This document shows, in pieces, positions 11,956-43,046 of a stretch of DNA of 51,145 bases. A program made the position numbers and the translations under genes. The DNA lies in the NCBI GenBank assembly GCA_018433945.1, contig JAHDQF010000075.1:1-51145 (forward strand), read 5' to 3'. A model generated the notes under the pieces. That model was not told the origin of the DNA. It did not search any database and saw only the letters and a list, made by a program, of their open reading frames with translations. The DNA is from Proteiniphilum sp. Its GTDB lineage: Bacteria > Bacteroidota > Bacteroidia > Bacteroidales > Dysgonomonadaceae. Each line of letters begins with the position of its first letter. The stretch's first letter is position 1.

Positions 11956-11990
11956 GTTCAAAAATCAGGAACCAGGAATAACTGATAGCT
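11956..11990 (+). repeat. Composite period-7 repeat (GTTC / AACCAGG / AGCT type)
   Basis: Five consecutive 7-mers: GTTCAAA, AATCAGG, AACCAGG, AATAACT, GATAGCT. The same order of motif classes recurs in the array at 25646-25715 when that array is read on the minus strand. Confidence 0.6.
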
Positions 11991-12026
11991 TACATTTCCC
12001 TGAGTTCGATTTTGGTAAGTTGCAAT

Positions 12027-12057
12027 TTTGTTCGTCCACAAAATTAAGCTATTTTTG
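12027..12057 (+). promoter_or_regulatory. Promoter upstream of phoH
   Basis: TTTG (12027-12030), a 19-bp gap, then TATTTTTG (12050-12057). A transcript from here would start near 12063, cross the ATPase remnant and a repeat array, and reach phoH after about 200 nt. Confidence 0.55.
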
Positions 12058-12087
12058 TTGCAAGACTGAGATCGGTACCGTTCACAT

Positions 12088-12219
12088 ATGGTCGCGCAAC
12101 AGACACTGCAACAATACCGGCTTGGCACATCGGCTAACGTGGTGCGGGTAAAAAGGGGCCTGATAGAATCGGAGGTGCTGGACGATAGCAGCGGGAAGCT
12201 GACAGCTCACAGCTTATAG
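12088..12219 (+). pseudogene. Remnant of an AAA/archaeal-type ATPase C-terminus
   Basis: A 43-codon frame whose core (QYRLGTSANVVRVKRGLI) resembles the C-terminal winged helix of AAA-type ATPases common in Bacteroidota, which read roughly 'Y-LGTSANV--NK--L'. No ATPase core lies upstream; a TGA stands in frame at 12067. Its last codons lie inside the following repeat array. The identification is from memory of the family pattern and is tentative. Confidence 0.4.
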
Positions 12220-12238
12220 CTTATAGCTTATAGCTTAT
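12204..12238 (+). repeat. Period-7 array (TAGCTTA) before phoH
   Basis: Five 7-mers: CAGCTCA, CAGCTTA, then three copies of TAGCTTA. The motif is the reverse complement of the TAAGCTA units that follow phoH, so phoH is flanked by opposed arrays of one family. Confidence 0.75.
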
Positions 12239-12266
12239 AATAAACAACCGTTAATCGACATAACAG

Positions 12267-13688
12267 ATGGCTACAACAAAGAAAAGTGAAGAGAAGGTAA
12301 CGAAAGGAACTGCTGCAAGGGCAGAGGGTACCGGAACCACACGCGTGCGCAGGAGCGTGAAAACGACAGCGAAGAAGAATTTCATCCTCGACACCAACGT
12401 GATCCTGCACGACTACAAATGCCTGGACAACTTTGAGGAGAACGACATCTATATCCCTTTCATCGTGTTGGAAGAACTGGACAAGTTCAAGAAAGGGAGC
12501 GACCAGATCAACTTCAACGCCCGTGCTTTTGTGCGGGAACTGGATCTGATCACCGACGACGACCTCTTCACAAGTGGAGCCGACCTGGGCGTGGGAAAGG
12601 GTAAGCTCTATATCGTGAATGCATCGCAAGAGAACAAACGAATCAACGATGCTTTCCCGGAGAAGATACCCGACAACCGCATCCTCGCCGTAGTGGATGA
12701 TGTGGCGATGAAACATCCGAATATGAAAACCATCCTGGTATCGAAAGATATCAATCTCCGCATGAAGGCCCGCTCACTGGGGATGATGGCCGAAGACTAC
12801 ATCAACGACAAGGTGACCGACATCGATATTTTCAATCAGAGTGAAGTGGTGGTGGAGGGGGTCAACCCGGATCTGATTGATCAGATCTACGCCCAGAACG
12901 GCGGCGTGGACCTGGATGCTTTCACCTTCGAGAAACAGCCGGACCCAAACCAGTGCTTCATCCTCAAGAGCGACCGCAACAGCGTGCTCGCACGATATAA
13001 CCCTTTCACACAGAAGATTACCAAAGTTGACAAGGAGAACAATTTCGGCATTCAGCCGCGCAACGCAGAACAGGCTTTCGCCTTTGAGATACTGAACGAT
13101 CCGGAGGTGAAGCTGGTGGGGCTCACCGGCAAGGCGGGAACAGGTAAAACACTGCTGGCACTGGCATCGGCACTGAAACAGCACAAGATCTACAGACAGA
13201 TCCTGCTGGCACGCCCCATCGTCTCCCTCTCGAACAAGGAGCTGGGCTACCTGCCGGGTGATGAGAAACAGAAGGTGGCACCCTACATGCAACCGCTGTT
13301 CGACAACCTGAACGTGATCAAGACGCAGTTGGGACAGAACAGTCCCGACCTGCATGTGATTGAGGAGCTACAGAAATCGGGACAACTGGAGATCGAGGCA
13401 CTCGCATTCATCCGCGGGCGGAGTCTGACCGAGACCTTCTGCATCATCGATGAAGCACAGAATCTGACCCCTCACGAGGTGAAAACCATCATCACCCGCG
13501 CCGGGGAGAACACGAAAATGGTGTTTACGGGGGACCTGCAGCAGATCGACTCACCCTACCTCGACATGCAGTCGAACGGACTGGCTTACATGATCGATAA
13601 GATGAAGGGACAGCAGATCTTTGGACATGTGAACCTGGTGAAGGGGGAACGCAGCGAACTTTCGGAACTGGCGAGCAATTTGTTGTAA
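12267..13688 (+). CDS. PIN-domain PhoH-family ATPase
   Basis: 473-residue protein joining a PIN ribonuclease-like domain to a PhoH ATPase (PhoH2/YlaK type). A basic Lys/Arg-rich tail (about 1-36) precedes the PIN domain, with its first acidic residue in FILDTNVILHDY and later ones in EELDKF and VSKDINLRMKA. The PhoH domain has Walker A GKAGTGKT near residue 288 and Walker B CIIDEAQN near 391, followed by TGDLQQID. PhoH2 proteins couple ATP-driven RNA unwinding to cleavage; that is known for relatives. The stop codon is the first unit of a period-7 array. hisS follows after 108 bp with its own promoter. Confidence 0.92.
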   Translation: MATTKKSEEKVTKGTAARAEGTGTTRVRRSVKTTAKKNFILDTNVILHDYKCLDNFEENDIYIPFIVLEELDKFKKGSDQINFNARAFVRELDLITDDDLFTSGADLGVGKGKLYIVNASQENKRINDAFPEKIPDNRILAVVDDVAMKHPNMKTILVSKDINLRMKARSLGMMAEDYINDKVTDIDIFNQSEVVVEGVNPDLIDQIYAQNGGVDLDAFTFEKQPDPNQCFILKSDRNSVLARYNPFTQKITKVDKENNFGIQPRNAEQAFAFEILNDPEVKLVGLTGKAGTGKTLLALASALKQHKIYRQILLARPIVSLSNKELGYLPGDEKQKVAPYMQPLFDNLNVIKTQLGQNSPDLHVIEELQKSGQLEIEALAFIRGRSLTETFCIIDEAQNLTPHEVKTIITRAGENTKMVFTGDLQQIDSPYLDMQSNGLAYMIDKMKGQQIFGHVNLVKGERSELSELASNLL

Positions 13689-13762
13689 GCGGTAAGCGGT
13701 AAGCTGTAAGCGGTAAGTTGTAAGCTATAAGCGGTAAGCTATAAGCGGTAAGCTGTAAGCTT
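13686..13762 (+). repeat. Period-7 array (TAAGCNG) from the phoH stop to the hisS promoter
   Basis: Eleven uninterrupted 7-mers all begin TAAG: TAAGCGG, TAAGCTG, TAAGTTG, TAAGCTA or TAAGCTT. The first unit supplies the TAA stop of phoH. The last ends 7 bp before the hisS -7 element, so the array occupies the place of its -33 element. Because 7 is not a multiple of 3, successive TAA triplets fall in all three frames. Confidence 0.9.
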
Positions 13763-13769
13763 TTTTCAT

Positions 13770-13777
13770 TATCTTTG
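13770..13777 (+). promoter_or_regulatory. Promoter -7 element of hisS
   Basis: TATCTTTG matches TAnnTTTG exactly and lies 19 bp before the hisS ATG. No TTTG is found at the usual -33 position, which is occupied by the TAAGCNG array. Confidence 0.6.
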
Positions 13778-13796
13778 CATCTCAATAAAAATAACG

Positions 13797-15155
13797 ATGC
13801 AGAAACCGACCATACCCAAGGGGACCCGTGATTTTTCGCCCGAAGAGACGGCGAAGCGCAACCATATCTTCGACACCATCCGTGAGGTGTACCGCCTCTA
13901 CGGCTTCCGCCAGATCGAGACACCGGCAATGGAGAACCTCTCCACGCTGATGGGCAAGTATGGCGAGGAGGGGGACAAGTTGCTTTTCAAGATCCTCAAC
14001 TCGGGCGATTTCCTCTCATCGATGAGCGAGGAGGACCTCAAAGAGGGCAACGCGGCCAGGACCGCCACCCGCATCTCGGAAAAGGGGCTGCGCTACGACC
14101 TCACCGTGCCCTTTGCACGCTACGTGGTGATGCACCGCAACGAGATCACCTTCCCCTTCCGGCGCTACCAGATTCAGCCGGTGTGGCGAGCCGACCGTCC
14201 GCAGAAGGGTCGCTACCGCGAGTTCTTCCAGTGCGACGCCGACATCGTGGGATCGGACTCGCTACTCAACGAGGTGGAGCTGGTGCAGATCATTGACGAG
14301 GTGTTCAGCCGCCTGGGCATCCGCGTGTTGGTGAAGCTGAACAACCGCAAGATCCTCTCCGGTATCGCCGGGATCATCGGCGAGGCGGACAAGATCACCG
14401 ACATCACCGTGGCAATCGACAAGCTGGATAAGATGGGACTGGAAAAGGTGAACGAGGAGCTGGCTTCCAAGGGGATCGCCCGCGAGGCGATCGACCGGCT
14501 GCAGCCGGTCATCCTGCTGAAAGGGAGCACCGGCGAGAAGCTGGAGAAGCTGCGGGAGCTGCTGGCAAGCTCAGAGACCGGCACCAAAGGTGTGGAGGAG
14601 ATGGCGTTCATCATTGGCAAGACGGAGGCACTGCAGCTCCGCAACGAGGTGGAGCTCGATCTGACGCTGGCGCGCGGCCTCAACTACTACACCGGCACGA
14701 TCATTGAGGTGAAGGCACTTGATGCGCAAATCGGCAGCATCACCGGCGGGGGTCGTTACGACAACCTGACCGGTATCTTCGGACTGCCGGGCGTCTCCGG
14801 CGTAGGCATCTCCTTCGGAGCGGACCGCATCTACGATGTGCTGACACAGTTGGAGCTCTTCCCCGAGAGCTTCTCCCACTCCACCGAGCTGCTCTTCGTG
14901 AATTTCGGCGAACGGGAGGTGGATTGGCTGCTACCGCTCGTGGCGCAACTCCGGCGTGACGGCATTTGCTGCGAGCTCTACCCCGAAGCAGCGAAGATGA
15001 AGAAGCAGCTCTCCTACGCCGACAGCAACCGCATTCCCTTCGTGGCGATGGTAGGTGAAAACGAGATGAAGGAGGGAACGATCACGCTGAAGAACATGCA
15101 AACGGGAGAGCAGAAGAGCGTCACTCCGGATGCATTGATGAAGGCGATCAGATGA
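13797..15155 (+). CDS. hisS: Histidine--tRNA ligase
   Basis: Class II aminoacyl-tRNA synthetase charging tRNA-His, cytoplasmic, 452 residues. It opens with the HisRS-typical [15 protein letters not shown]. Motif 2 falls within [20 protein letters not shown] with [12 protein letters not shown] after it. The histidine-binding motif is [15 protein letters not shown], then GGGRYDNL and the motif 3 region GVSFGADRI-like ([13 protein letters not shown]). The C-terminal anticodon-binding domain follows from about residue 360. Its stop overlaps the end of the convergent cold-shock-domain gene by 8 bp. A -7 element lies just upstream. Confidence 0.96.
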
Positions 15156-15591
15156 TCTTCACATCCACGGCATTCATTCCCTTGGGGCCGCGCTCCAGCC
15201 GATAGGTGACCCGGTCGCCCTCGGCGATCCCATGCTCGGCATTGCTCTTGTGGAAGAAGTACTTGATCACGCTGTTGCCCTCGCGGATGAATCCGAAGCC
15301 GCGCGTCTCATCGTAGAAATCGACACGCCCCTCCGGGACACCCACATCGTCGGTAACCTCCTTGCGGGGTACGGAGATCTCAATATCTTCCAGTTCAATC
15401 GCTTCCTCTTCCTGAATGGGTTCAGGCGGTGTATCGATGATCACACCGTTGGCATCGACATAGGCAATCATATCCTCGAAGGAGCTGGTGCCCTGCTGTT
15501 TGCGTTCTTCTTTTTTCTTCAGTTTCTCTTTCTTCTTCTGCTGTTTTTGCTTCTCTATCTCTCTTTTGTTGAATGAATTTGATCTTGCCAT
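15148..15591 (-). CDS. Cold-shock-domain protein with basic coiled N-terminus
   Basis: 147-residue protein. The first 35 residues are Lys/Glu/Gln-rich and probably form a charged helix ([20 protein letters not shown]). An acidic linker follows, then a C-terminal cold-shock domain beginning [15 protein letters not shown] with the aromatic RNA-binding face, then YFFHKSN. Cold-shock-domain proteins melt RNA structure. It lies 75 bp downstream of the DEAD-box helicase gene on the same strand, so an RNA-remodelling pair is likely. The gap holds period-7 and period-8 arrays. Its 3' end overlaps the hisS stop by 8 bp. Confidence 0.88.
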
Positions 15592-15611
15592 TGATACGTT
15601 TAAAAAGTTTT

Positions 15612-15669
15612 TATGTTAGTACGTTAATACGTTCTTAGTTCGAAGCTAAAAGCTATTAGCTAACAGCTA
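15612..15669. repeat. Adjacent period-8 and period-7 arrays between two cold-shock-type genes
   Basis: Plus-strand 8-mers TATGTTAG, TACGTTAA, TACGTTCT (15612-15635) are followed by 7-mers GAAGCTA, AAAGCTA, TTAGCTA, ACAGCTA (15642-15669). On the minus strand the 7-mer array begins with the TAG stop of the DEAD-box gene and the 8-mers lead toward the cold-shock gene start. Confidence 0.75.
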
Positions 15670-16782
15670 ATTCGCAATCTGCAGCTTCCTACCCGTCAGC
15701 CTCTGGATGTCCCGCAGCATGGGCTGCTCCTCCTGCGTACAGAAAGTGAGGGCCCGTCCGCTGTTGCCGGCACGGCCGGTGCGACCGATGCGGTGCACAT
15801 AGGTCTCCGCCACGTCGGGCAGGTCGTAGTTGATCACCAGGTCGAGCTGGTCGATATCGATGCCGCGGGCGGCGATATCGGTGGCGATCAGCACCTTCGT
15901 GGTGCGTGCCTTGAAATCGCTCAGCGCCCGCTGGCGCGCGTTCTGTGACTTGTTGCCGTGAATGGCCGCACTGCCGATGCCCGCCTTGCTCAGGATCCGT
16001 GCGATCTTGTCGGCACCATGCTTGGTGCGCGAGAAGACCAGCACCGACTTGTCATGTTCCTGCTGCAGCAGGTCGATCAACAGATCCTTCTTATCCGGCT
16101 TCTCTACCAGATAGATGCGCTGATCGATGATCTCCACCACAGAGGAGACCGGCGTCACCTCCAGGCGTACCGGCTTGTGCAGGATGGTGCGTGAGAGCGT
16201 TGCGATGGAGTCGGGCATCGTGGCCGAAAAGAAGAGTGTCTGCTTGTGCTTGGGCAGCAGCGGCAGCAACCGCCTGATGTCGTGAATGAACCCCATGTCG
16301 AGCATCCGGTCTGCCTCGTCGAGCACGAAGTGGCGGATATGCTGCAGGGTGATCAAGCCCTGACCAATCAGGTCGAGCAATCGCCCAGGTGTGGCGACGA
16401 GGATGTCGACACCCCCCCTGAGGGTGTTCACCTGCGCATGCTGCTTCACTCCGCCAAAGATAACGGTGTGGCGCAGGCGGGTATACTTGTTGTACGCGCG
16501 GATGCTCTCGTCAATCTGAATCGCCAGCTCGCGCGTGGGGGTCAGGATCAGCGCCCTGATCTCTCTCTTCTTGCCCTGCGGCATGTCTGAGCAGAGCTGC
16601 TGGATAATGGGGATGGCGAAGGCGGCTGTCTTGCCGGTGCCGGTCTGGGCCAGTCCCAGGATGTCTTTGTTGTGCAGTGCAGGGATGATGGCCTGCTCCT
16701 GAATGGGTGTGGGGATGGTGTATCCTTTTTCACTAAGAGCCCTTAAGATCGGCTCCATGATTTCTAATTCGTTAAATGTCAT
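15667..16782 (-). CDS. DEAD-box RNA helicase, RhlE-like
   Basis: ATP-dependent RNA helicase of 371 residues, nearly just the two-lobe core. Motifs in order: Q motif (TPIQEQA), I AQTGTGKT, Ia PTRELA, TPGRLLD, II DEADRMLDMGF, III SAT, IV VFSRTKHGAD, V ATDIAARGIDI, VI HRIGRTGRAG. RhlE/CsdA relatives help ribosome assembly and RNA decay, often in the cold. It is followed by a cold-shock-domain gene. A TATCTTTG at 17054-17047 on this strand would give a leader of about 260 nt that includes the possible branched RNA at 16844-16926. Confidence 0.93.
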   Translation of the reverse strand: MTFNELEIMEPILRALSEKGYTIPTPIQEQAIIPALHNKDILGLAQTGTGKTAAFAIPIIQQLCSDMPQGKKREIRALILTPTRELAIQIDESIRAYNKYTRLRHTVIFGGVKQHAQVNTLRGGVDILVATPGRLLDLIGQGLITLQHIRHFVLDEADRMLDMGFIHDIRRLLPLLPKHKQTLFFSATMPDSIATLSRTILHKPVRLEVTPVSSVVEIIDQRIYLVEKPDKKDLLIDLLQQEHDKSVLVFSRTKHGADKIARILSKAGIGSAAIHGNKSQNARQRALSDFKARTTKVLIATDIAARGIDIDQLDLVINYDLPDVAETYVHRIGRTGRAGNSGRALTFCTQEEQPMLRDIQRLTGRKLQIAN

Positions 16783-16812
16783 TCGTTTTGTCTATGACTG
16801 CCGTTTTTTTTG

Positions 16813-16842
16813 GTTGATGTGGCAGCTTGGTTGCTATATTTG
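16813..16842 (+). promoter_or_regulatory. Promoter toward the ABC-F gene
   Basis: GTTG (16813-16816) and TATATTTG (16835-16842) are separated by 18 bp. It predicts a leader of about 260 nt for the ABC-F gene, covering the structured element and the MNKWWGRTE frame. Confidence 0.5.
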
Positions 16843-16843
16843 A

Positions 16844-16926
16844 CCGTACGTAGGCGGGGATCCTGATTCCCATGCCCGCTTCTACTGGGCGGTTGATCTA
16901 TCTCTCTCTGGCCGTTCCTACCGTAC
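16844..16926. ncRNA. Candidate multibranch structured leader RNA
   Basis: GTACGTAGG (16846-16854) can pair with CCTACCGTAC (16917-16926) with one bulged base. Inside are two hairpins, GGGA/TCCC (16857-16871) and GCCC/GGGC (16874-16890). The complement folds equally well, so strand is undecided. It does not match any riboswitch I can recall. Confidence 0.35.
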
Positions 16927-17046
16927 GACGGCAGGATTCGGGTTTGCGCTCTCCTCTGTCCGAAGACCCGGGAGAATCGTGTTTTATGAACAAATGGTGG
17001 GGAAGAACTGAATGAGTAGGACCTGCACGCGATATGTTACGGAGGA

Positions 17047-17054
17047 CAAAGATA
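17047..17054 (-). promoter_or_regulatory. Candidate -7 element for the DEAD-box gene
   Basis: Minus-strand TATCTTTG is an exact TAnnTTTG match, about 265 bp upstream of the helicase start. The nearest TTTG box is 22 bp further upstream, slightly long. Confidence 0.4.
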
Positions 17055-17111
17055 GACAAAAATTTTCAAACTACCCCAAAAAGCGTTTCCTTTGCACAAA
17101 ATTTCAGCGTA

Positions 17112-19046
17112 ATGGTTTCAATCGAAAACCTCACCGTGGCATTTGGCGGATTCACCCTGCTCAACGGGATATCGTTCGTGCTGAACAGGAACGAGCGGGT
17201 GGCCCTCACCGGCAAGAACGGCGCCGGCAAATCGACCCTGCTCAAGATCATGGCGGGACTCCAAAAGCCTACCTCCGGCAACATCTCTTTCCCGAAAGAG
17301 GTGTCGATCGGATACCTGCCGCAGCAGATGAAGCTGAGCGACGGACGCACCGTGCGCGAGGAGGCTTCGCTTGCTTTCGAACATCTCCGGAAGATGGAAC
17401 AGGAGTTGGAGCGGCTGCATCTGGAGATGGCGGAACGGAGCGACTACGAGTCGGACGCTTACCGGCAGGTGATCGAACGGGCGACCGACCTGCAGGAACT
17501 GCTCCAGATGTCGGGCATCCACAACTTCGAGGCGGAGGTAGAGAAGACGCTCCTGGGACTTGGTTTCGCACGGGGCGACCTGGAACGTCCCACCCGCGAG
17601 TTCAGCGGCGGTTGGCGCATGCGCATTGAGCTGGCCAAGATCCTGCTGCAGGCACCCGACGTGCTGCTGCTCGACGAGCCAACGAACCACCTCGACATCG
17701 AGTCGATACAGTGGCTGGAGAGCTTCCTCGCCACCCACACCAACGCGGTGATGCTGGTGTCGCACGACCGTGCTTTCCTCGACGCGGTGACCACCCGTAC
17801 CGTGGAGATCATGCTGGGTGAGATCCACGATTACAAGGTGAACTACAGCAAGTATGTGGAGCTGCGACGCGAGCGGCGTGAGCAGCAACAGCGGGCCTAC
17901 GAGAACCAGCAGAAGCAAATCAAGGATACGGAGGATTTCATTGAGCGCTTTCGGTATAAGGCGACCAAGTCGAACCAGGTACAGTCGCGCCTCAAGCAGC
18001 TGGAGAAGCTGGAACGCATCGAGGTGGATGAGGTGGATACCTCGCGCCTCAACCTCAAGTTCCCGCCAGCACCCCGCTCCGGCAGCTACCCGGTGATCAT
18101 GGAGGATGTCTCGAAAAGATACGGCGACCACCTCGTGTTCGGGGATGTGACCCTCACCATCGAGCGGGGCGAAAAGATCGCCTTCGTGGGCAAGAACGGT
18201 GAGGGGAAGTCAACGCTGGTAAAATGCATCATGCAGGAGATCGACCACGGCGGCAGGCTGGAGCTGGGTCACAACGTGAAGATCGGTTACTTCGCACAGA
18301 ACCAGGCAGAGCTGCTGGACGAGGAGAAGACGGTGTTCGAGACCATCGACTATGTGGCGGTGGGCGACATCCGCACGAAGATTCGCGATATCCTGGGTGC
18401 CTTCATGTTCGGCGGCGAGGCTTCAGAGAAGAAAGTGAAGGTGCTCTCGGGTGGTGAGCGAAGCCGCCTGGCGATGATACGCCTCCTGTTGGAGCCGGTG
18501 AACCTGCTGATCCTCGACGAGCCGACCAACCACCTGGACCTGGCATCGAAGGATGTGCTCAAGAAGGCGATCCGCGAGTTCGACGGCACCGCCATCATCG
18601 TGTCGCACGACCGTGATTTCCTCGACGGACTGGTGGACAAGGTGTATGAGTTCGGCGATGGCAGGGTGCGGGAGCACATTGGGGGCATCTACGACTTCCT
18701 CGCGAAGAAGAAGATGGAGACGCTACAGCAGTTGGAGCTCTCCGCATCACCCACGGCGAAACGGGAAGAGAAACGGGAGGAGCCGTCGGAGAACAAGCTC
18801 TCCTATCAGGAGCAGAAGGAGTTGAACAGGCAGCAGCGCCGCCTGGAAAAGAAGGTGGAGGAGGCAGAAAAGAAGGTGGCATCGCTCGAGGAGAAGCTGA
18901 AAGCGATGGAGGAACAGCTGGCCACACCCAAAGGGGCATCCGACATGGATCTGCTGCAGAAATACCTGGAGGTCAAGGCCCGCCTCGACCAGGCGATGAA
19001 CAACTGGGAACGAACTACGACGGAGTTGGAAAAGTTAGTGGGTTAG
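17112..19046 (+). CDS. ABC-F family ATPase (Uup/EttA-like)
   Basis: Soluble tandem ABC protein of 644 residues without membrane segments. Each ABC domain is complete: Walker A GKNGAGKST and GKNGEGKST, signatures FSGGWRMR and LSGGERSR, and Walker B LLLDEPTNHLD and LILDEPTNHLD. A linker of about 80 residues between them (after LVSHDRAFLD) is the P-site tRNA interaction motif region. The C-terminal 100 residues form a charged coiled coil as in Uup. ABC-F proteins bind the ribosomal E site and act in translation, ribosome rescue or antibiotic protection. ATG 17112 starts the conserved MVSIENLTVAFGG. The stop lies inside a period-8 array. Confidence 0.92.
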   Translation: MVSIENLTVAFGGFTLLNGISFVLNRNERVALTGKNGAGKSTLLKIMAGLQKPTSGNISFPKEVSIGYLPQQMKLSDGRTVREEASLAFEHLRKMEQELERLHLEMAERSDYESDAYRQVIERATDLQELLQMSGIHNFEAEVEKTLLGLGFARGDLERPTREFSGGWRMRIELAKILLQAPDVLLLDEPTNHLDIESIQWLESFLATHTNAVMLVSHDRAFLDAVTTRTVEIMLGEIHDYKVNYSKYVELRRERREQQQRAYENQQKQIKDTEDFIERFRYKATKSNQVQSRLKQLEKLERIEVDEVDTSRLNLKFPPAPRSGSYPVIMEDVSKRYGDHLVFGDVTLTIERGEKIAFVGKNGEGKSTLVKCIMQEIDHGGRLELGHNVKIGYFAQNQAELLDEEKTVFETIDYVAVGDIRTKIRDILGAFMFGGEASEKKVKVLSGGERSRLAMIRLLLEPVNLLILDEPTNHLDLASKDVLKKAIREFDGTAIIVSHDRDFLDGLVDKVYEFGDGRVREHIGGIYDFLAKKKMETLQQLELSASPTAKREEKREEPSENKLSYQEQKELNRQQRRLEKKVEEAEKKVASLEEKLKAMEEQLATPKGASDMDLLQKYLEVKARLDQAMNNWERTTTELEKLVG

Positions 19047-19066
19047 TAGGTTGGTAGGTTGCATTC
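19035..19066 (+). repeat. Period-8 array at the ABC-F stop codon
   Basis: Four 8-mers: TTAGTGGG, TTAGTAGG, TTGGTAGG, TTGCATTC. The second unit supplies the TAG stop at 19044-19046. The reverse complement resembles the CATACTAA units upstream of the next gene. Confidence 0.65.
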
Positions 19067-19194
19067 ATGAGGTATCTGAGAGAAACAGATATCAAAGGTT
19101 CAAAGTATCGCAAATAATGAACAACAATTATTAAGTAACGTTTTATCATTGGAAATATCGCAATACTTCCCTGATTTCCTGAAAAACGAAGGAT

Positions 19195-19234
19195 CATACT
19201 AACACACTAACATACTAACGTAATAACGTAATAA
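19195..19234 (+). repeat. Period-8 array ending in the acyltransferase start codon
   Basis: Five perfect 8-mers: CATACTAA, CACACTAA, CATACTAA, CGTAATAA, CGTAATAA. The final A is the first base of the ATG at 19234. The same 8-mers, reverse-complemented, appear upstream of the cold-shock-domain gene. Confidence 0.85.
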
Positions 19235-19776
19235 TGGCTAACATAAGCAAATTCATACTCAACAAGATCATGGGATGGAAAGTGGTGAACACTTTCCCCG
19301 AGGTACCGAAGTGCGTGCTGGCAGTAGCACCCCACACCAGCAACTGGGATTTCGTGGTGGGCAAGCTGGCTTACAACTCACTGGGACGGCAGGCCAACTT
19401 TCTGATCAAAGCGGAATGGTTCTTCTTCCCCTTCAACATTTTTTTCAGCCGCATCGGCGGGATACCGGTGAAGCGGGGAAAAAGCAAATCACTTACCGAC
19501 GTCCTGGCGAAGGAGTTCCGGACACGCGATTGGATGCACCTGGGCATCACCCCCGAGGGTACGCGCAAGCCGGTGAAAGAGTGGAAAAAAGGTTTCTACT
19601 TCATCGCCGTGAAGGCGAAGGTGCCAATCCTGCTCATCGGACTCGACTACGGCAAAAAGGAGGCGCGTGTGCTCGATCTCTTTTACCCCACCAACGACTA
19701 CCGCAAGGATATCGTGACCATCAAATCCTACTACAAGGGTATCCAGGCCAAGAAGCCGGAGAATTTTATCCTTTGA
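19234..19776 (+). CDS. PlsC-like 1-acylglycerol-3-phosphate acyltransferase family protein
   Basis: 180-residue acyltransferase of the PlsC/LPLAT superfamily, expected at the inner membrane face. The H-x4-D catalytic motif is HTSNWD (His34, Asp39). The acceptor-phosphate motif appears as ITPEGTRK, preceded by GIPVKRGKSKS. It is shorter than classical PlsC and lacks an obvious N-terminal membrane anchor, as in the small acyltransferases common in Bacteroidota. The substrate is not evident. The start codon is fused to a period-8 array. It converges with dinB, with 11 bp between the stops. Confidence 0.85.
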   Translation: MANISKFILNKIMGWKVVNTFPEVPKCVLAVAPHTSNWDFVVGKLAYNSLGRQANFLIKAEWFFFPFNIFFSRIGGIPVKRGKSKSLTDVLAKEFRTRDWMHLGITPEGTRKPVKEWKKGFYFIAVKAKVPILLIGLDYGKKEARVLDLFYPTNDYRKDIVTIKSYYKGIQAKKPENFIL

Positions 19777-19787
19777 CCAAACCTTTC

Positions 19788-20879
19788 CTATTCATCCTCT
19801 TCAAAGTTGAGGGAGAGCTGGATCCCCTCAGCAGGCAGCAGATCCTGACCGGCATCGGCGTTCCTGAGGGTGAGCCCCATCAGGCGGATCCTGCGATCGA
19901 GCAGGTCATCGGCCTGCAGCAACAGCTCCTTGCCCAGGTCGAACAGCTCGCTGTAGGTGCGGATGTAGTGTCCCACGGTGCGGCTGCGGGTGATCACCGT
20001 GAAATCGGCGTATTTGATCTTGAGCGTCAGCGTGCGCGCCAGAAACTTCCTCTTCTCAGCCCGTCGGTACACCTCCAAAGCCAGCTGGTCGAGTGCCGCC
20101 AGGATATCGACCATCTCCTCCAGGTCATCGGCATAGGTCTCCTCAGCGCCGAGCGACTTGCGCACCCGTTCCGACTCCACCTCGCGGTCATCGATGCCGC
20201 GCGCAAAGCGGTAATAGGTGCTACCCATCTTTCCAAACTCACGCACCAGGTCGATCTCCTCCCACTGCTTCAAATCCTTCCCCGTCTGAATGCCGAGTGC
20301 TTCCATGCGCGCGGCCGTCACTTTTCCCACTCCGAAGAACTTGCTCACCGGCAACTGCTCCACGAACGCCTCGGCCTGCTCCGGCTCAATGACGAACAAC
20401 CCGTCCGGCTTCTGGTAGTCGGAGGCGATCTTGGCGAGGAACTTGTTGTAGGAGACGCCTGCGGAGGCGGTGAGGCGGGTGCGGTTAAAGATCTTCTGCT
20501 TGATCTCGCTGGCGATGAGGGTCGCCGAGCGGTTGCCTTTGTGGTTGACGGTGACATCGAGAAACGCCTCGTCGAGCGAGAGCGGCTCCACCTTGTCGGT
20601 AAACTCGTGGAAGATCTGCATGATCTGGTTGGACAAATTGCGGTAATGATCGAACCGTGGCATGACAAAGATCAGCTGGGGGCACCTGCGCAGTGCCGTG
20701 ACGGAGGGCATGGCGGAGTGGATGCCATACTTCCGTGCCTCATAGCTGGCGGCGGCCACCACGCCCCGTTTGCCTTCATAGCCCACAGCGACGGGCTTGC
20801 CGCGATAATGGGGATGGTCGCGCTGCTCGATGGAGGCGTAGAACGCATCCATATCCACATGGATGATCTTCCGGTTCAT
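19788..20879 (-). CDS. dinB: DNA polymerase IV
   Basis: Y-family translesion polymerase of 363 residues. Catalytic carboxylates are at Asp9 (HVDMDAFYASIE) and Asp103/Glu104 (SLDEAFLDV). The thumb and helix-hairpin-helix region reads GVGKVTAARMEALGI. The little-finger domain follows from about residue 240. The C-terminus (LSLNFEEDE) lacks the full QLxLF-type beta-clamp peptide of enterobacteria, though LSLNF could serve. A complete promoter lies so close that the message may have almost no leader. Pol IV bypasses minor-groove lesions at the cost of fidelity. Confidence 0.95.
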   Translation of the reverse strand: MNRKIIHVDMDAFYASIEQRDHPHYRGKPVAVGYEGKRGVVAAASYEARKYGIHSAMPSVTALRRCPQLIFVMPRFDHYRNLSNQIMQIFHEFTDKVEPLSLDEAFLDVTVNHKGNRSATLIASEIKQKIFNRTRLTASAGVSYNKFLAKIASDYQKPDGLFVIEPEQAEAFVEQLPVSKFFGVGKVTAARMEALGIQTGKDLKQWEEIDLVREFGKMGSTYYRFARGIDDREVESERVRKSLGAEETYADDLEEMVDILAALDQLALEVYRRAEKRKFLARTLTLKIKYADFTVITRSRTVGHYIRTYSELFDLGKELLLQADDLLDRRIRLMGLTLRNADAGQDLLPAEGIQLSLNFEEDE

Positions 20880-20884
20880 AAGGA

Positions 20885-20915
20885 CAAATATAAGGGCAAT
20901 TTGTTACATATCAAA
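20885..20915 (-). promoter_or_regulatory. Promoter of dinB
   Basis: Minus-strand TTTG (20915-20912), 19 bp, then TATATTTG (20892-20885), an ideal Bacteroidota promoter. Only 5 bp separate the -7 box from the ATG at 20879, so transcription would begin at or next to the start codon. Confidence 0.72.
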
Positions 20916-21002
20916 GGGAAAGGAAAATTATCTGCACATCCCGTTCAGGATGATCACGGGGTCCCGTCACCTTTTCATTTATCGAAACCGCCCGCGATCT
21001 CT

Positions 21003-22469
21003 TTACGCTCCCAAGATACGTTTGCAAACCATCTCGGCGCTGATCACCGCCATGGGGAGTCCTGCCCCCGGCGTGGTGGAGGCACCCACGTAGAAGAGGT
21101 TGCCATACTCCTCGTCGAAGTTTTTCGGCCGGAGGGCGCCGATCTGGCTCAGCCGGTGTGAGAGTCCCAGGCCGCTCCCCATGTAGAGGTTGAACTGCTT
21201 CTCCCACTCCTGCGGGGTGTAGATGGTGCGGGTGACAATGTGGGGCATGATATCGATGCCGATGCGTTTGGAGAAATCGTTCAGGATGCTGTCGACAATC
21301 TCGTCGCGGTCGCTCCAGTCGGGCTTGTACTGCAGGCTGGGCACAGGGCAGACGATGAAGAGGCTCTCGCAACCCTCAGGTGCACATTCGGGATTGTGCT
21401 TCGAGACGGCATTCACATAATAGTAGGGCTTCTGCAGGGAGTCGGGGTTCTTCAGCACGTTGTGGGCGTATGACTCGAAGTTGGTACCGAGGAAGTAGTT
21501 GTGCAGCTCCAGGTCGGGCAACTTACGATCGATGCCGATGTAGATGGTGAGGTAACCCATCGTCCACTCCATCTTGAGGAGCTTCGCCTCGGAGTACTTC
21601 TTCCGCTGCAGCACCCGCCCCCGGAAGAGGGCCGCATCGGCGTTGATCAGGAAGAGATCGCCCCCGTAGTGGTTGCCCTCGCTGTCGGTGAGCTGTGTGA
21701 TGCGGTCGCCCTCCGCCTCTACTGCCGTAACCTCGGTGTTGTAGCGGAAGGTGGCGCCCCGCTTTTGCAGCGCATCGACCATCCCTTCCACGATGCGGTA
21801 CATGCCACCCTCCACGTTGTGGTAGCCATCGTGCCGGAACTCGGTGTAGGAGAGGAGGCTGTAGATGGCCATCGTGTCGAAGGGGGTGCGCCCCAAGAAG
21901 AAAGCCACCAGCGAGATGATCTGCCGTGCCTCCTGCGAGTCGAAGTATTGTTTTACGTGCTGCCAGAACGTCTTCATCAGCACGGGGATGTGCTGTGGGT
22001 TGACCCTCATCAGTGCGGCAAAATATTCGAGGTAATTATCGAAATTGCTGCGGATCACAATGTCGAACGTGTCGTGGAAGAGGGCAGCCGACTTCTTCAG
22101 GTAGCGCTCCATCTTGGCCTCGAAGCCGGGTTCGATGTCGCGAAACTGCTCCGCCAGCTTTTTGATATCCTTGTGCAGGTGGAAGCTGCGTCCTTCGGGG
22201 AAGTGCACCGAGTAGAGCGGGTCCAGCTCCACAAAGCGAAAGGGCATCTCTACGCCACACAGCTTCATGAAGTCGGTGAAGACGTAAGACATGCTGAAGA
22301 AGCTGGGGCCGGTGTCGAAGGTGAACCCCTCCTTCTCGATGCGGTTGAGCCTTCCCCCGGGGCGGTTATTTTTCTCGATGAAATGTACCTCATATCCTTT
22401 GCTTTGCAACAACAGTCCGCTGGAGAGGCCTCCCAGTCCGGTGCCGGTGATGATCACTTTTTTCTTCAT
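21003..22469 (-). CDS. crtI: Phytoene desaturase (CrtI type)
   Basis: FAD-dependent carotenoid desaturase of 488 residues, the last gene of the carotenoid operon. The dinucleotide-binding N-terminus reads VIITGTGLGGLSSGLLLQSK, followed by EKNNRPGGR. The C-terminal FAD motif lies in NLFYVGASTTPGAGLPMA, typical of CrtI. CrtI enzymes convert colourless phytoene to lycopene or neurosporene at the membrane. The usual GAGxGG glycine motif is GTGLGG here, a tolerated change. Its start overlaps the TPR gene stop by 4 bp. It is the only desaturase in the cluster, so all desaturation probably falls to it, unless it is a 3,4-desaturase paralogue. Confidence 0.93.
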   Translation of the reverse strand: MKKKVIITGTGLGGLSSGLLLQSKGYEVHFIEKNNRPGGRLNRIEKEGFTFDTGPSFFSMSYVFTDFMKLCGVEMPFRFVELDPLYSVHFPEGRSFHLHKDIKKLAEQFRDIEPGFEAKMERYLKKSAALFHDTFDIVIRSNFDNYLEYFAALMRVNPQHIPVLMKTFWQHVKQYFDSQEARQIISLVAFFLGRTPFDTMAIYSLLSYTEFRHDGYHNVEGGMYRIVEGMVDALQKRGATFRYNTEVTAVEAEGDRITQLTDSEGNHYGGDLFLINADAALFRGRVLQRKKYSEAKLLKMEWTMGYLTIYIGIDRKLPDLELHNYFLGTNFESYAHNVLKNPDSLQKPYYYVNAVSKHNPECAPEGCESLFIVCPVPSLQYKPDWSDRDEIVDSILNDFSKRIGIDIMPHIVTRTIYTPQEWEKQFNLYMGSGLGLSHRLSQIGALRPKNFDEEYGNLFYVGASTTPGAGLPMAVISAEMVCKRILGA

Positions 22470-23191
22470 TTGATATCATGTTTTTTGGTGAATGCGGGGT
22501 AGAGCTCATCCCTCACCCAGGTGAAGCCGGGAGCGAGGGAGAGCACCTTACGGTAAAAGCTGTCGGCCATGTCGATGTTGCCGGTTTCCTCGTATGCTGA
22601 AGCTATCTGCACCAGCAGCGCCAGGTAGTTCCAGTCGCCTCTGCCATTGGCTGCCATCAGCCGCTCGGCACGGAGGTAGTGTTCGATGGCCCGCTCTTTC
22701 GAACCACCGAAGAGAGGGGGCATGAAATAATCGATGTTGCCCAGCTGGATGTAACCCAGCGCATTTCTGTCGTCACCGGCTACCGATTCTTTCGCGGCAT
22801 CCAGGCTTTTAGGCCCCAGCCTCGGTGCCTTGAGGTTGGCCAGGCCGATCTGGAACCCGAGGTAGGCCGATTCATAGGCCTGCAGCAGGGGAAGGCGATG
22901 GTTCGCTTGTTTCAGTCGTTCGATCCGCTCCAGGCTGCGTTCCAGGTAACGCTTTGCCTCGCTCTTTCGTTTGTTGCCGATGCACCAGCCAATGTAGCCA
23001 TACTCATAGTTGAGCAGCTCCAGCTCGCGCTCGTTGTCCTTGCCTGCCTCGGCATGCATGGCGTCGATGGTTGTCTTCCAGGACGCCATGTCGTTGGTCA
23101 GGTAGGCCTGGTAGATGGTCTCTTTCTCACCGGCCGTTACGAGGGTGATGCAGAGGGTGATGAAAATCAATAAAAACAGTTGTCTGATCAT
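22466..23191 (-). CDS. Exported TPR-like protein in the carotenoid operon
   Basis: 241 residues from the ATG at 23191, which overlaps the upstream GT2 stop by 4 bp. A signal peptide (RQLFLLIFITLCITLVTAG) predicts export to the periplasm. The rest is helical, with tetratricopeptide-like segments: EAKRYLERSLERIERL, DDRNALGYIQLGNIDYFMPP and a C-terminal repeat EETGNIDMADSFYRKVLSLA. FGGSKERAIEHYLRAERLM is another repeat. I do not recognise a named family. Its place between a glycosyltransferase and crtI, coupled at both ends, suggests a role in carotenoid assembly or transport. That is inference only. Confidence 0.8.
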   Translation of the reverse strand: MIRQLFLLIFITLCITLVTAGEKETIYQAYLTNDMASWKTTIDAMHAEAGKDNERELELLNYEYGYIGWCIGNKRKSEAKRYLERSLERIERLKQANHRLPLLQAYESAYLGFQIGLANLKAPRLGPKSLDAAKESVAGDDRNALGYIQLGNIDYFMPPLFGGSKERAIEHYLRAERLMAANGRGDWNYLALLVQIASAYEETGNIDMADSFYRKVLSLAPGFTWVRDELYPAFTKKHDIK

Positions 23192-24312
23192 ATGTTTCTT
23201 CCTTTCCAGCGGAACGTTTTTTTTCTTTTGTTGATGAGCGAGCGAAAGATAAAGACTCCCAGCATCAGCTGTTGTGGCAGGAACAGCAGGAGGTTGTCGC
23301 CCACCTTCATACCGGCGGTGAGTGAGGCGGCGATGCGGGTGAGCAGCGTGGCAGCGAGCCATAACCAGAGCCAGTCCCATCTTCCCGTCAGGAGGAAGGC
23401 AACGAAGCCGAGGGTGGTGACCAGCCAGTAGAGGATTGCTGCCGACGATGAGTTGCCAAAGAAGTAGGTGACATTCTTTGAGAACCCTTCCACCGCCTCC
23501 GGCAGGGAGTGATACATACGGCAGCGTACGTCACGTTCACCCGTAAGGCAGCTCACCCGACGGCGTAGCCGCTTCAGGTGGCGGGCAATCTCGATATCCT
23601 CGGCACGGCTCTTCCGAAACTGACGGTGGGGCTCCAGCTCTTTGTAGGTCTCACGCCGGAACAGCATAAACTGTCCGTTGGCGGCGGAGAGCGAGGGGAA
23701 CTTCGAAAGGCGCACCAGCGGCAGCGGCAGCAACGTGAGCAGGATGAGCTGCATATTGGGTACGGTGATCTTCTCGCCCAGGGTGTGCATCTCCTGGGTG
23801 GGGAAGATGCTCATCAGGTCGCACCGGTGTCGTAGCATGTATTGCAGGGAACGGTCGATCACCCCCTCTCTCACCCGCACGTCGGCATCGAGAAAAAGGA
23901 GGTAGTCACCCGTAGCTTCCTGTGCCAGGCGGTGGCAGGCATGGTTCTTGCCGGACCAGCCATCGGTCAGTACGCCGCTGCGGATCAGCCGGATGCGCGG
24001 ATCACGGGCGGCAAAGGCTTCTACGATCGCAGCGGTACGGTCGGTGGACTGGTCGTCGCAGACGATGATCTCCAGTATCCTGTCGGTGATGGTGGTGAGG
24101 TCGACCAGCAGATTACCGATATTCGCCTCCTCGTCGCGTGCCGGGATCAGTAAGGAGAGGGTTGGATCTTTCTTTGACGCGGTAGTCGTTATGTTGTCTT
24201 CACCGTTTGTATTGCGCTCCGGAAGTCGTTCCCGGAAGAGAAGGTTGACCAGCGCAACCAGCAGTTGCAACAGCGCAAAGGCAAGGATGATGCAGGCAAT
24301 ATATTCCATCAT
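23188..24312 (-). CDS. Membrane glycosyltransferase family 2, carotenoid cluster
   Basis: 374 residues from ATG 24312, chosen because it overlaps the previous stop as ATGA. An N-terminal membrane helix (EYIACIILAFALLQLLVALV) precedes a GT2 domain with LLIPARDEEANIG, the acidic motif in VCDDQSTDRT, and the metal-binding DADVRV after YLLFL. A later motif reads SRAEDIEIARHLKRL. Two or three C-terminal membrane helices follow. The architecture resembles CrtQ and CruG-type glycosyltransferases that sugar-coat carotenoids at the inner membrane. With an adjacent acyltransferase, a carotenoid glycoside ester is likely. The sugar is unknown. Confidence 0.85.
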   Translation of the reverse strand: MMEYIACIILAFALLQLLVALVNLLFRERLPERNTNGEDNITTTASKKDPTLSLLIPARDEEANIGNLLVDLTTITDRILEIIVCDDQSTDRTAAIVEAFAARDPRIRLIRSGVLTDGWSGKNHACHRLAQEATGDYLLFLDADVRVREGVIDRSLQYMLRHRCDLMSIFPTQEMHTLGEKITVPNMQLILLTLLPLPLVRLSKFPSLSAANGQFMLFRRETYKELEPHRQFRKSRAEDIEIARHLKRLRRRVSCLTGERDVRCRMYHSLPEAVEGFSKNVTYFFGNSSSAAILYWLVTTLGFVAFLLTGRWDWLWLWLAATLLTRIAASLTAGMKVGDNLLLFLPQQLMLGVFIFRSLINKRKKTFRWKGRNI

Positions 24313-24926
24313 TCGGTTCGGGCAGTTTGGGTGGTGAGACAATCGGCATAAAACCGGTTATAGGCTTCTTCAAGAGCTTCGATGCGGAACGGTCCGTCAT
24401 AGTCGCGCAGGTAGATGTATAATGAGGGCTTGGGATGCGCCAGGTAGTCGATCATGTTGACCGACATCAGCAGCTGCACCGCTCCTTCCCTGCCCTGCAG
24501 GATGCGCTCGATCCCTTTTTCAAAGCGGAAGCTGCTGCAGTAGAGCGACTGCAACCTGCCCTGCGGGTAGATCAGCACCATATTGGCCGGGTCGTGCAGC
24601 AGCGATGCGGCATACTGCAGCGATTCCAGCACTTCGCGACTTTTCCTGTTGACCGAGAAGGCGCCGGTATAGTTGAAGAAGCGGAAGCGGAGCAACTGAT
24701 CCTCCTGCATCATGAAATGAAACTTGCGTTTCAGCACCTCCAGCTTGAGGTACATTGCCCAGAAGCCATCCCACCAGCCGGTATGATTGCCAATCAGCAG
24801 CAGCGGCTTTCCCATATCGGTGAAAGTGCCCTCTATCGTCACCCGGTGGAAATGGTGCTTCAGCAACCAGCGGGTATAGTGCTGGAAGAAAGGGTAGATG
24901 AAAAAGTGGTGCTTTGAGCGGAGCAT
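24309..24926 (-). CDS. PlsC-like acyltransferase in the carotenoid operon
   Basis: 205-residue LPLAT-superfamily acyltransferase. The H-x4-D motif is HTGWWD (His48, Asp53) within LLLIGNHTGWWDGFW. The second conserved block is LIYPQGRLQS, in place of the FPEG of phospholipid enzymes. Position between the cruF-like and GT2 genes, coupled to the latter by a 4-bp overlap, suggests it acylates the sugar of a glycosylated carotenoid, as CrtO does in staphyloxanthin synthesis, although CrtO is a different protein family. A lipid substrate cannot be excluded. Confidence 0.82.
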   Translation of the reverse strand: MLRSKHHFFIYPFFQHYTRWLLKHHFHRVTIEGTFTDMGKPLLLIGNHTGWWDGFWAMYLKLEVLKRKFHFMMQEDQLLRFRFFNYTGAFSVNRKSREVLESLQYAASLLHDPANMVLIYPQGRLQSLYCSSFRFEKGIERILQGREGAVQLLMSVNMIDYLAHPKPSLYIYLRDYDGPFRIEALEEAYNRFYADCLTTQTARTE

Positions 24927-24989
24927 CGCGGTGTTGTATGGTTTTCTGATGATTTAATTCGATATGAAAATATGCTGTTCCGTATTGGT

Positions 24990-25640
24990 TCAGTTGAGCA
25001 GCAGGATCGATAGAAAGAAGAGCGTTTGCACCACAAAGAGAGGCAGTGCCATCCTGTTGTGGTCGCGTACTTTCATTACATAGCGTACTGTATGGAAGAT
25101 GACGGCCAGCAGGCCCCACATCAGGTAGTTCTGCAAGGGGATGATATCGTTTTGCCATGACCACATGTCCATCTTGGGGGCTACCTGCTCGAGGATCAGA
25201 TCGTACCCCACCATCAGCAGCGAGGGCAGGATGATTCCATTGAGCAGGTTACGCTTTAAAGGTGTGAAGATGGCGGAGGTGAGGTAGATCATCAGCACCC
25301 AATTGAGTCCGATGAGCGGCGGTGTGCCCCATATCTTCGGCCCCAGACCGCTGCCATAGAGGTAGCTGCCGAAGAGCAGACCGGTATTGACACCCCACAT
25401 CTCCACCAGGAAGCCGGCGATGAAAACGAAGAGGTAAAAGAGCATCCTGCTGAGCTGTCCTCCTTTGCTTCGATCGCGGTCGCAACAGAGGAGCAGTGCC
25501 AGCGAGAGCAGCAGCACCAGCGGCGTCAGAAACATGAAGGTGCCATGCGTGAGGGGGATGCTGAATCCGGCAACTCCCACGGCATAGATCACCGCGATGC
25601 GGCGGATCATCTCTTTCTCTTTGATGGTATATCGGGGCAT
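24990..25640 (-). CDS. CruF-like carotenoid biosynthesis membrane protein (DUF422)
   Basis: 216-residue integral membrane protein with about six hydrophobic helices. The family signature is clear: FLVEMWGVNTGLLFGSYLYG then LGPKIWGTPPLIGLNWVLMI, and later YDLILEQVAPKMDMWSW. Known members are CruF of cyanobacteria and Deinococcus and the bacterioruberin-pathway hydratase of haloarchaea, which add water to the end double bond (C-1',2') of acyclic carotenoid ends. No lycopene cyclase is present in the cluster, which fits an acyclic, tertiary-hydroxylated product. ATG 25640 is used; ATG 25610 is possible. The start follows directly on a period-7 array. Confidence 0.85.
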   Translation of the reverse strand: MPRYTIKEKEMIRRIAVIYAVGVAGFSIPLTHGTFMFLTPLVLLLSLALLLCCDRDRSKGGQLSRMLFYLFVFIAGFLVEMWGVNTGLLFGSYLYGSGLGPKIWGTPPLIGLNWVLMIYLTSAIFTPLKRNLLNGIILPSLLMVGYDLILEQVAPKMDMWSWQNDIIPLQNYLMWGLLAVIFHTVRYVMKVRDHNRMALPLFVVQTLFFLSILLLN

Positions 25641-25645
25641 TTTTT

Positions 25646-25715
25646 AGCTTTCAGCGATCAGCGGTAAGCTTTTCCTGGTTCCTGGTTTACAAACATCGAA
25701 CCATGAACTGTGAAC
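25646..25715 (-). repeat. Composite period-7 repeat across the idi 3' end
   Basis: Ten consecutive 7-mers. On the minus strand they read GTTCACA, GTTCATG, GTTCGAT, GTTTGTA, AACCAGG twice, AAAAGCT, TACCGCT, GATCGCT, GAAAGCT. The array encodes the last 18 residues of Idi and its stop, and runs to within 5 bp of the next start codon. The class order GTTC, AACCAGG, AGCT repeats that at 11956-11990. Confidence 0.82.
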
Positions 25716-26221
25716 CGATCGAATATCATCTTGAACCACTCAGTAAAACATTCGGGATGCTGTTTCATCTCCTCCTGCAGGACATCGGGAGAGAGATAGC
25801 GCCATTCATCCACCTCATCGGGGTGCGGCTGTGGCAGTTCGTCGCTGGTGAGGGAAAAAACCCGGTCATACTCATACTCGGTCAGATCCTCACCCACCTT
25901 TGCCTGGTAAACAAAATCGAAAAGATGCACCAGTGCCTCGCCGGCATCGATACCCATCTCCTCCTTCAGGCGGCGGTGTGCAGCTATGGCATGCTCCTCT
26001 CCCGGGTAGGGATGGGTGCAGCAGGCGTTGGTCCAGAGGCAGGCGGAGTGGTACTTGCCGGCAGCACGGCGGTGCAGCAGCCAGTCGCCGGCAGAGTTGA
26101 AGACCAGCACCGAGACGGCACGGTGGAGTGTGGGGTGGCGGTGCGCTTCCAACTTATCCATGGTGCCGACAGGGTTGTCATGCTCGTCGACCAGCTGCAC
26201 CAACAGTTCGTTATCTCTCAT
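25658..26221 (-). CDS. idi: Isopentenyl-diphosphate delta-isomerase, type I
   Basis: Nudix-fold enzyme interconverting IPP and DMAPP, supplying the isoprenoid starter for carotenoids; 187 residues. The catalytic cysteine lies in WTNACCTHPYPGE and the second active-site region in EYEYDRVFSL. Metal-binding His residues are in HRAVSVLVFN and ACCTHPYPGE. The Nudix-like helix reads AIAAHRRLKEEMGI. Its start overlaps the crtB stop by 4 bp. The C-terminal 18 or so residues (VHGSMFVNQEPGKAYR) are encoded by a period-7 repeat and are not expected in relatives. All conserved catalytic parts precede that tail, so function should be intact. Confidence 0.94.
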   Translation of the reverse strand: MRDNELLVQLVDEHDNPVGTMDKLEAHRHPTLHRAVSVLVFNSAGDWLLHRRAAGKYHSACLWTNACCTHPYPGEEHAIAAHRRLKEEMGIDAGEALVHLFDFVYQAKVGEDLTEYEYDRVFSLTSDELPQPHPDEVDEWRYLSPDVLQEEMKQHPECFTEWFKMIFDRFTVHGSMFVNQEPGKAYR

Positions 26222-42990: not shown

Positions 42991-43046
42991 ATGGCTTCTG
43001 CTGATTTCTGTGTAATGGCTTCTGCTGACTTCTGTGTAATGGCTTT
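42991..43046 (-). repeat. 24-bp tandem duplication inside the intron
   Basis: Two 24-bp units at 42991-43014 and 43015-43038 differ at one base, and a third begins at 43039 (ATGGCTTT). It lies between the intron's 5' RNA domains and the protein remnant. Confidence 0.8.

Follow-up and report, generated by a model that had tools for sequence, protein, structure and literature searches.

Scattered through the gene spacers of a Proteiniphilum sp. genome are short tandem arrays of degenerate 7-bp and 8-bp units, here called heptads and octads, in which blocks of different unit type are chained in an order that is mostly constant within the lineage. They were first noticed in a stretch of 51,145 nucleotides (contig JAHDQF010000075.1 of assembly GCA_018433945.1, positions 1 to 51,145), referred to here as the window. 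We favour, with a probability of about 0.6, a reading of these arrays as dispersed composite satellites that are copied as composites, after which slippage or unequal exchange rewrites them locally. Their likeliest role would be that of nearly neutral spacer DNA, kept out of genes by selection. The source genome (2.31 Mb) is designated G000 and its relatives carry other G numbers; L and C numbers denote stretches and contigs.

At the two sites that drew attention, the heptads listed in the initial annotation were re-read letter for letter and are exact. Site 1 (11956–11990, plus strand) reads GTTCAAA, AATCAGG, AACCAGG, AATAACT, GATAGCT, and site 2 (25715–25646, minus strand) reads GTTCACA, GTTCATG, GTTCGAT, GTTTGTA, AACCAGG, AACCAGG, AAAAGCT, TACCGCT, GATCGCT, GAAAGCT. 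Site 2 is clearly periodic, with 36 of 63 identities at lag 7 against 10–18 at the other lags from 4 to 11. Site 1 (17–18 of 28 across two measurements, 2–10 at the remaining lags) is by itself near chance and not secure, its support being the vocabulary that it has in common with other arrays. The 7-bp periodicity of the window is far above chance, because lag-7 groups exceed those in 100 dinucleotide shuffles of the window: 8 were seen against 1.01 expected at a threshold of at least 17/28, 5 against 0.23 at 18/28 and 3 against 0.01 at 20/28.

What had been described as three motif classes proves to be two classes and an inversion: AACCAGG corresponds to the GTTCCTG register read in reverse complement, and the second block is thus an inverted form of the first. 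Site 2 had also been taken as intergenic, but an open reading frame (ORF) of NUDIX type on the minus strand enters it and stops inside, and about the last 19 codons of this ORF, stop included, come from the repeat array (25658–25715). In G000 the ORF passes through the GTTC and AACC blocks, and in G023 its ortholog stops within the first block; the block order of site 2 is also present at the orthologous spacer of G023.

The arrays form a genome-wide family of discrete elements. Three consecutive AGCT(N3) units (pattern AGCTNNNAGCTNNNAGCT) occur at 69 places in G000 and the reversed control at none, so the two sites are not the only copies; three consecutive TAAGCNN units give 70 forward and 61 reverse matches, with none for the control. 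In a 401-kb sample of G000 (the window and 19 stretches, most of them picked for holding AGCT matches), arrays of at least 20/28 number 30 at lag 7 and 10 at lag 8, and the other lags from 4 to 13 give 0 to 4 (1, 2, 0 and 0 at lags 5, 6, 9 and 10). A less selected subset of 131 kb (the window and four arbitrary 20-kb stretches) holds 4 lag-7 and 2 lag-8 arrays. Period 7, with its multiples 14 and 21, stands above other lags, and period 8 ranks second. That the arrays are discrete follows from masking them, which leaves the spacers with about as much signal at lag 7 as at lags 6 and 8. Relatives of the genus were sampled at 9 to 40 kb per genome, and 12 of the 16 carry a lag-7 array, the words being very diverse; G020 and G016 have lag-8 arrays only, and G008 and G026 show neither period. 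The period can change within one array, because heptad arrays run directly into octad arrays, from TAAGCAA to AATCAACG at L023 15357–15456 (G000 C39) and likewise at L085 8424–8622 (G010 C14), where TTTCTCCA gives way to TTCACTC.

A crude ORF call places 31 of 32 lag-7 arrays and 8 of 12 lag-8 arrays between genes, in DNA of which spacers make up 10.8%. Genes of the same direction flank 27 of the 32 lag-7 arrays, as they do 119 of 173 spacers over 50 bp, a comparison that carries no null. Equally raw are the counts of lag-7 arrays lying at most 15 bp from a stop codon (18 of 32) or from a start codon (13 of 32).

Block order and copying of composites

The usual chain in the genus, read on one strand, is octad (GTTNNTAN), GTTCNNN, inverse (AACCNGG), AGCTNNN. 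We scanned 39 genus genomes for two GTTC units within 30 bp before two AGCT units, and for the converse. GTTC comes first in 27 rows from 12 genomes (24 loci) and AGCT first in 6 rows from 3 genomes (4 loci). Merging orthologs where they were recognised leaves at most 18 loci against 4 (flanks were compared for 20 loci only), and one of the 24 GTTC-first loci, G003 C101, looks coding by eye. The order proposed in the initial annotation is therefore not random elsewhere in the genus: GTTC is first at 24 of 28 loci, and at all four in G000. Where octad, GTTC and AGCT blocks are all present (seven stretches, four non-orthologous spacers), the order is identical. Because AGCT is palindromic, a locus read as 'AGCT then GTTC' reads as 'GAAC then AGCT' from the complementary strand. 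At two of the four loci of opposite order, G028 C20 and G009 C34, AGCT follows an inverse-type block, and they may represent the usual chain with its first block lacking or inverted.

The extent of this rule is limited by G162, a genome of another family, in which only the opposite order was found (8 rows, 6 loci; GTTC then AGCT in none), several of these loci carrying AGCT, GTTCTTT and GTTCTGG blocks in succession. A universal block order was rejected: across 295 genomes of the order, GTTC precedes AGCT in 16 rows from 11 genomes (5 rows from G000) and follows it in 16 rows from 7 genomes (8 rows from G162). Block order is thus a property of a lineage. Several matches of the order scan (L086, L089, L092, L098, L103 and L104) look coding by eye and are probably due to chance. 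Also present in G162 (C71, L112 2991–3186) are REP-like palindromic units (GGTCCCCGAG...TCGAGGGG) alternating with AGCT and GTTC heptad blocks.

Composites can be copied, because a 64-bp composite with its junctions intact occupies two G033 loci with unrelated flanks, as the initial annotation had anticipated in proposing a composite element that is copied. The two contigs, C4 and C15, align without gaps over these 64 bp with 61 identical positions, spanning octads, GTTTATA, GTTCGAT, GTTCAAA and GCTAACA; their flanks gave no BLAST match to each other, and identity ends at the repeats. By its flanks C15 is the ortholog of G000 C84, and those of C4 match neither. G033 C208 and G000 C84 have TTCGATGTTCAAAACAT in common at the junction, shortly before GCTAAAAGCT, with no flank match. 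In the favoured reading, the first step, for which there is one clear case and one weaker, would be the copying of a composite, junctions included, to a further spacer; ectopic gene conversion or template switching would be the simplest route.

Block copying between loci would also be expected if the arrays were carried along by a mobile element (REP, MITE or insertion sequence), and the palindromes between the heptad blocks of G162 L112 fit such an origin. We regard it as remote: the 60 flanks of 30 G000 arrays gave only two matches, both between adjacent arrays of one spacer, the identity of the two G033 copies stops where the repeats stop, and in G000, the one genome tested, the arrays have no conserved body or termini beyond the repeat of the kind that defines REP, BIME or MITE elements.

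Turnover of units and competing explanations

Flanks of 85 bp from 22 arrays were searched in four relatives, and 12 loci were read in G020 and 8 in G033. Two of the G020 spacers do not enter the length count, the one at L018 (unreadable N) and the one at L020 9575, which has no left flank; the stretch L033, all N, was dropped. Spacer length differs in all ten readable G020 spacers with both flanks placed (G000/G020 136/189, 87/8, 179/110, 204/121, 99/87, 165/95, 87/66, 135/42, 155/70 and 158/120), between flanks that are mostly 90–100% identical. One further G020 array, outside this count as one flank is missing, is present and longer. At four spacers (87/8, 87/66, 135/42 and 155/70) G020 has no array or a scrap of one, and at two of these four one flank is just 77–81% identical. 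Loss in G020 is simplest for the 135/42 spacer, because G033 has an array there, of another motif.

In the PhoH–HisS spacer, read in 15 genomes, relatives carry motifs other than the TAAGCNN of G000 at the orthologous position: TAGCTGA in G033, AGTGAAA words in G010, a long CATCCCA array in G062, octads, GTTC and then AGCT in G009, GTTC, inverse and then AGCTG in G028, and TAAGCTG drifting into ACTGCGG in G017. In G034 and G024 this spacer is about 50 bp long and has no array. In the CSD–DEAD spacer the octad–GTTC–AGCT chain is kept in G000, G033, G009 and G028 with differences of unit length, and G020 is without it.

Inside arrays, units resemble their near neighbours. In G000 (26 arrays, 310 units) the mean distance between units one, two and three places apart is 1.54, 1.60 and 1.71, against 1.90, 1.89 and 1.89 after shuffling, the value at distance 1 being favoured by the way in which arrays were found, through adjacent identity; from four units on, likeness equals that of shuffled units. 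Likeness out to three units was repeated in 23 arrays of relatives (in G162 to two units only), and octads show it to one unit in G000 and two in relatives. The statement in the initial annotation that slippage would not make such arrays is thus not supported, as neighbour likeness and the length changes in G020 point to slippage-like copying of units inside blocks. Comparison of relatives and the unit statistics show, as a second step, that units are gained, lost and replaced locally inside each copy, in the way that slippage or an unequal exchange involving one to three units would produce. Close relatives therefore differ in length and in the order of their units.

Arrays of one genome draw on a common vocabulary. 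The 6-mer cosine is 0.169 within genomes and 0.051 between them, a difference equalled in 0 of 1,000 permutations and favoured by the picking of most G000 and G162 stretches for their AGCT or GTTC content. TAAG-type arrays of G000 contain 25 unit kinds, 14 of which occur in at least two arrays and cover 93% of 199 copies. A third step, drift in this common pool, may yield the vocabulary and block order specific to each lineage. Composite copying would thus account for order and junctions, local slippage or exchange for unit scrambling and length, and drift for the dialects of lineages.

Purely local slippage, in which a chance 7-bp or 8-bp duplication is expanded in place by a slip-prone polymerase and likeness between loci is convergence, agrees with the dominance of periods 7 and 8, the likeness of neighbouring units and the lack of common blocks among TAAG arrays. 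It agrees as well with the GTTC count across Bacteroidota and with the many TAAGC arrays of other phyla that are runs of one unit. GTTC as a privileged motif was rejected: four consecutive GTTC units occur in 55 of 395 Bacteroidota genomes, no more often than the reversed control (66 of 395, counted by eye). At 57 loci in other phyla, chosen for TAAGC and assigned to phyla from record titles, GTTC pairs outside the TAAGC match show no excess (13 against 16 for the reversed control), but AGCT-type and TAAGC-type pairs do (40 against 14 and 12 against 1). Four consecutive TAAGCNR units were found in at least 117 stretches of named genomes; the 80 loci listed belong to many phyla, and outside Bacteroidota the array is often one unit repeated. 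Such arrays are present, too, in 17 stretches (L285–L301) of contigs classed as viral. Purely local slippage is nevertheless unlikely in our view, given a vocabulary common within the genome (from a biased sample) and a block order mostly constant within the lineage, and it is strained by the 64-bp composite at two unrelated loci.

Several observations weigh against copying of composites followed by local rewriting. Only one long copied composite was found. Among the 21 TAAG-type arrays of G000 there is no pair of loci sharing at least four consecutive units of at least three kinds (shuffled units give a mean of 0.53 pairs and a pooled Markov model 3.3), and for want of such common runs recent block copying is not seen for the TAAG class. 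Octads and GTTC without AGCT occur in mixed order, GTTC standing ahead of an octad-like match in three G000 spacers (L114 2922, L119 and L120). Two of the three spacers compared (CSD–DEAD and g17034–g19275) are closer to some orthologs than to arrays of their own genome. Three consecutive TAAGCNN units were found in only 9 of 37 genus genomes and 2 of 24 others of the order. Finally, most TAAGC arrays vary at the same positions, a pattern not expected of plain neutral slippage. Non-modal units at the seven positions T-A-A-G-C-N-N number 31, 20, 5, 5, 26, 64 and 88 of 214, so that the AAG core varies little and the last two positions most. These counts are taken from arrays found by lag only, because the TAAG search pattern left no freedom at position 1 (T) or position 3 (A); they exaggerate the effect, in that one mutation spread by duplication is counted several times, and it is still the same positions that vary across arrays. 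The uneven variability within units, together with common words that lack a common order, are the weakest points of the favoured reading and leave room for core selection or biased synthesis.

Core selection would act if the arrays were binding sites for a DNA-binding protein that contacts a 4–5-bp core and leaves the variable bases free, with 7-bp phasing (3 × 7 = 21 bp) setting the helix face. The little-varying AAGC followed by two freely varying positions, the same register of variable positions in different arrays and the common vocabulary without common order suit this explanation, as does the strand distribution, which shows no clear preference relative to transcription (of 23 arrays, 10 run in sense and 7 in antisense orientation, 5 lie in spacers of other types and 1 is tied). 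Selected sites are hard to square with relatives in which the same spacer has its array absent, replaced or built of another motif; the neighbouring window genes that were annotated are of an ordinary housekeeping kind, and block order is given no obvious reason. We therefore hold this explanation to be quite unlikely. A function at the RNA level was also considered and rejected: four window sites gave folding z-scores of −1.67, −0.13, 0.49 and −0.51, and the best, site 2, was equalled by 9 of 200 shuffles and is weak at most.

Biased synthesis would require a dedicated DNA-writing activity, such as a polymerase prone to slipping or a reverse transcriptase using a short template, that makes units in which the core is fixed and other positions wobble. 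The unit grammar, approximately T-A-A-G-Y-N-R, is alike in arrays without common unit order, and periods 7 and 8 are tight despite the many motifs. Strong differences of motif among related genomes, and octad and heptad blocks that merge in one array, which one fixed template would not be expected to produce, make this very unlikely. In a related proposal, a lineage's own DNA synthesis would write units of 7 to 8 nt, keeping a core of 4–5 nt and leaving two or three positions free, so as to fill spacers with arrays that have words and not order in common, and existing arrays would serve as donors for new ones. If true, this donor role would also explain why block order is kept within the lineage; we think the proposal improbable, to the same degree as the binding sites.

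Window features and relation to known repeats

Beyond the two sites, the window holds five further array regions (Table 1) that the initial annotation did not list, one of which, at 15605–15678, is the composite of the CSD–DEAD spacer. Nine neighbouring ORFs were annotated, one of them without a match; the Pfam matches are to PhoH, HisRS, cold-shock, DEAD helicase, NUDIX, and carotenoid and squalene/phytoene synthases.

Table 1. Repeat features of the window, numbered from its first nucleotide.
Feature	Position	Strand	Remarks
Site 1, short composite GTTC – AATCAGG/AACCAGG – AGCT, 5 heptads	11956..11990	+	17/28 lag-7 identities
Site 2, GTTCNNN x3 – GTTTGTA – AACCAGG x2 – NNNNGCT x4	25646..25715	-	overlaps end of NUDIX-type ORF 25658–26221
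AGCTNNN heptad array	12188..12247	.	ends 19 bp upstream of PhoH-type gene start (12267); lag-7 score 26/28
TAAGCNN heptad array	13675..13772	+	contains stop codon of PhoH-type gene (12267–13688); precedes HisS (13797)
Octad block (GTTNNTAN) of CSD–DEAD spacer composite	15605..15640	+	
GTTCNNN block of CSD–DEAD spacer composite	15631..15641	+	
AGCTNNN block of CSD–DEAD spacer composite	15644..15678	+	overlaps stop codon of DEAD-box helicase (ORF 15667–16782, minus strand)
Octad array (GGTTNGTA)	19027..19069	+	overlaps 3' end of ORF 17034–19046
Octad array (AACNTANN)	19185..19241	+	upstream of gene 19275

Repeats of other kinds were seen in passing: a 24-bp tandem repeat in the window (42991–43045, 2.3 copies, 96% matches), a tandem ATGCTTTTTTGCATA-type repeat of 15-bp period and a different palindromic kind at two places of G000 C47 (L024 5141–5189 and 8038–8094), and a CTTT/CTGT tetranucleotide tract, possibly phase-variable, in a predicted ORF of G000 C31 (L021 10330–10381).

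With tandem 7-nt units, a mostly intergenic position and a length that varies between relatives at one locus, the arrays belong to the intergenic heptanucleotide repeats. They differ from CRISPR arrays, which have longer direct repeats and unique spacers, in having units of 7–8 bp and no spacers, and instead of one near-exact word per array they have degenerate units and chained block types. Degenerate heptads are also known from the cyanobacterial STRR repeats and the Nostoc tRNA-Leu intron; those lie inside an intron or keep to one motif per array, unlike the arrays described here.

Closest in the literature are the TAACTGA direct repeats in intergenic regions of Beggiatoaceae, Cyanobacteria and five Bacteroidetes (MacGregor 2015, PMC4679880). 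These too are tandem 7-mers, mostly intergenic; strains differ mostly by insertions and deletions in 7-nt increments, neighbours may be without an array at the same locus, and in some Bacteroidetes and Microcystis the repeats are mixed with other heptamers. They consist mainly of one exact word, whose single-base variants are rarely repeated in BOGUAY. The arrays described here have instead degenerate units, blocks chained in a mostly lineage-constant order, octads, and composite copying between loci. GGGNATC-type heptamers of Xanthomonas and Nostoc (Rehm et al. 2015, PMC4692102) are similar in having many copies in spacers, no association with a functional class of genes, and extensive variation in length and sequence between close relatives at the same locus. 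They differ in being a single, G-quadruplex-forming motif type with four units preferred, and composite order was not found in the accessible part of that account. Among the longer simple repeats, heptamers are the most abundant kind in many bacteria according to Mrazek et al. 2007, as cited in both reports, and polymerase slippage was proposed there for the bacterial excess of period 7, which our arrays follow; many of them are probably too degenerate for the thresholds used for such repeats. For the repeat length of 7 itself, the accessible text of PMC4679880 offers only a suggestion.

The initial annotation knew of no named family of this kind. For ordered composites this stands, none having been found in the open-access literature; for intergenic heptanucleotide repeats as such it does not, since these have been described (PMC4679880, PMC4692102). 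A lineage-kept chain of block types with octads and an inverted block was not found in that literature; intergenic heptanucleotide repeats were known, and their mixtures with other heptamers are in PMC4679880.

Unit, block and locus can each be traced across 39 related genomes, in which units turn over between near-identical flanks. Blocks follow an order that changes from lineage to lineage, and a composite turns up at a new locus. Together this makes it possible to test directly how period-7 repeats originate. Such fast, repeat-driven turnover also affects the alignment of spacers, the search for promoters and the assembly of short reads in these genomes.

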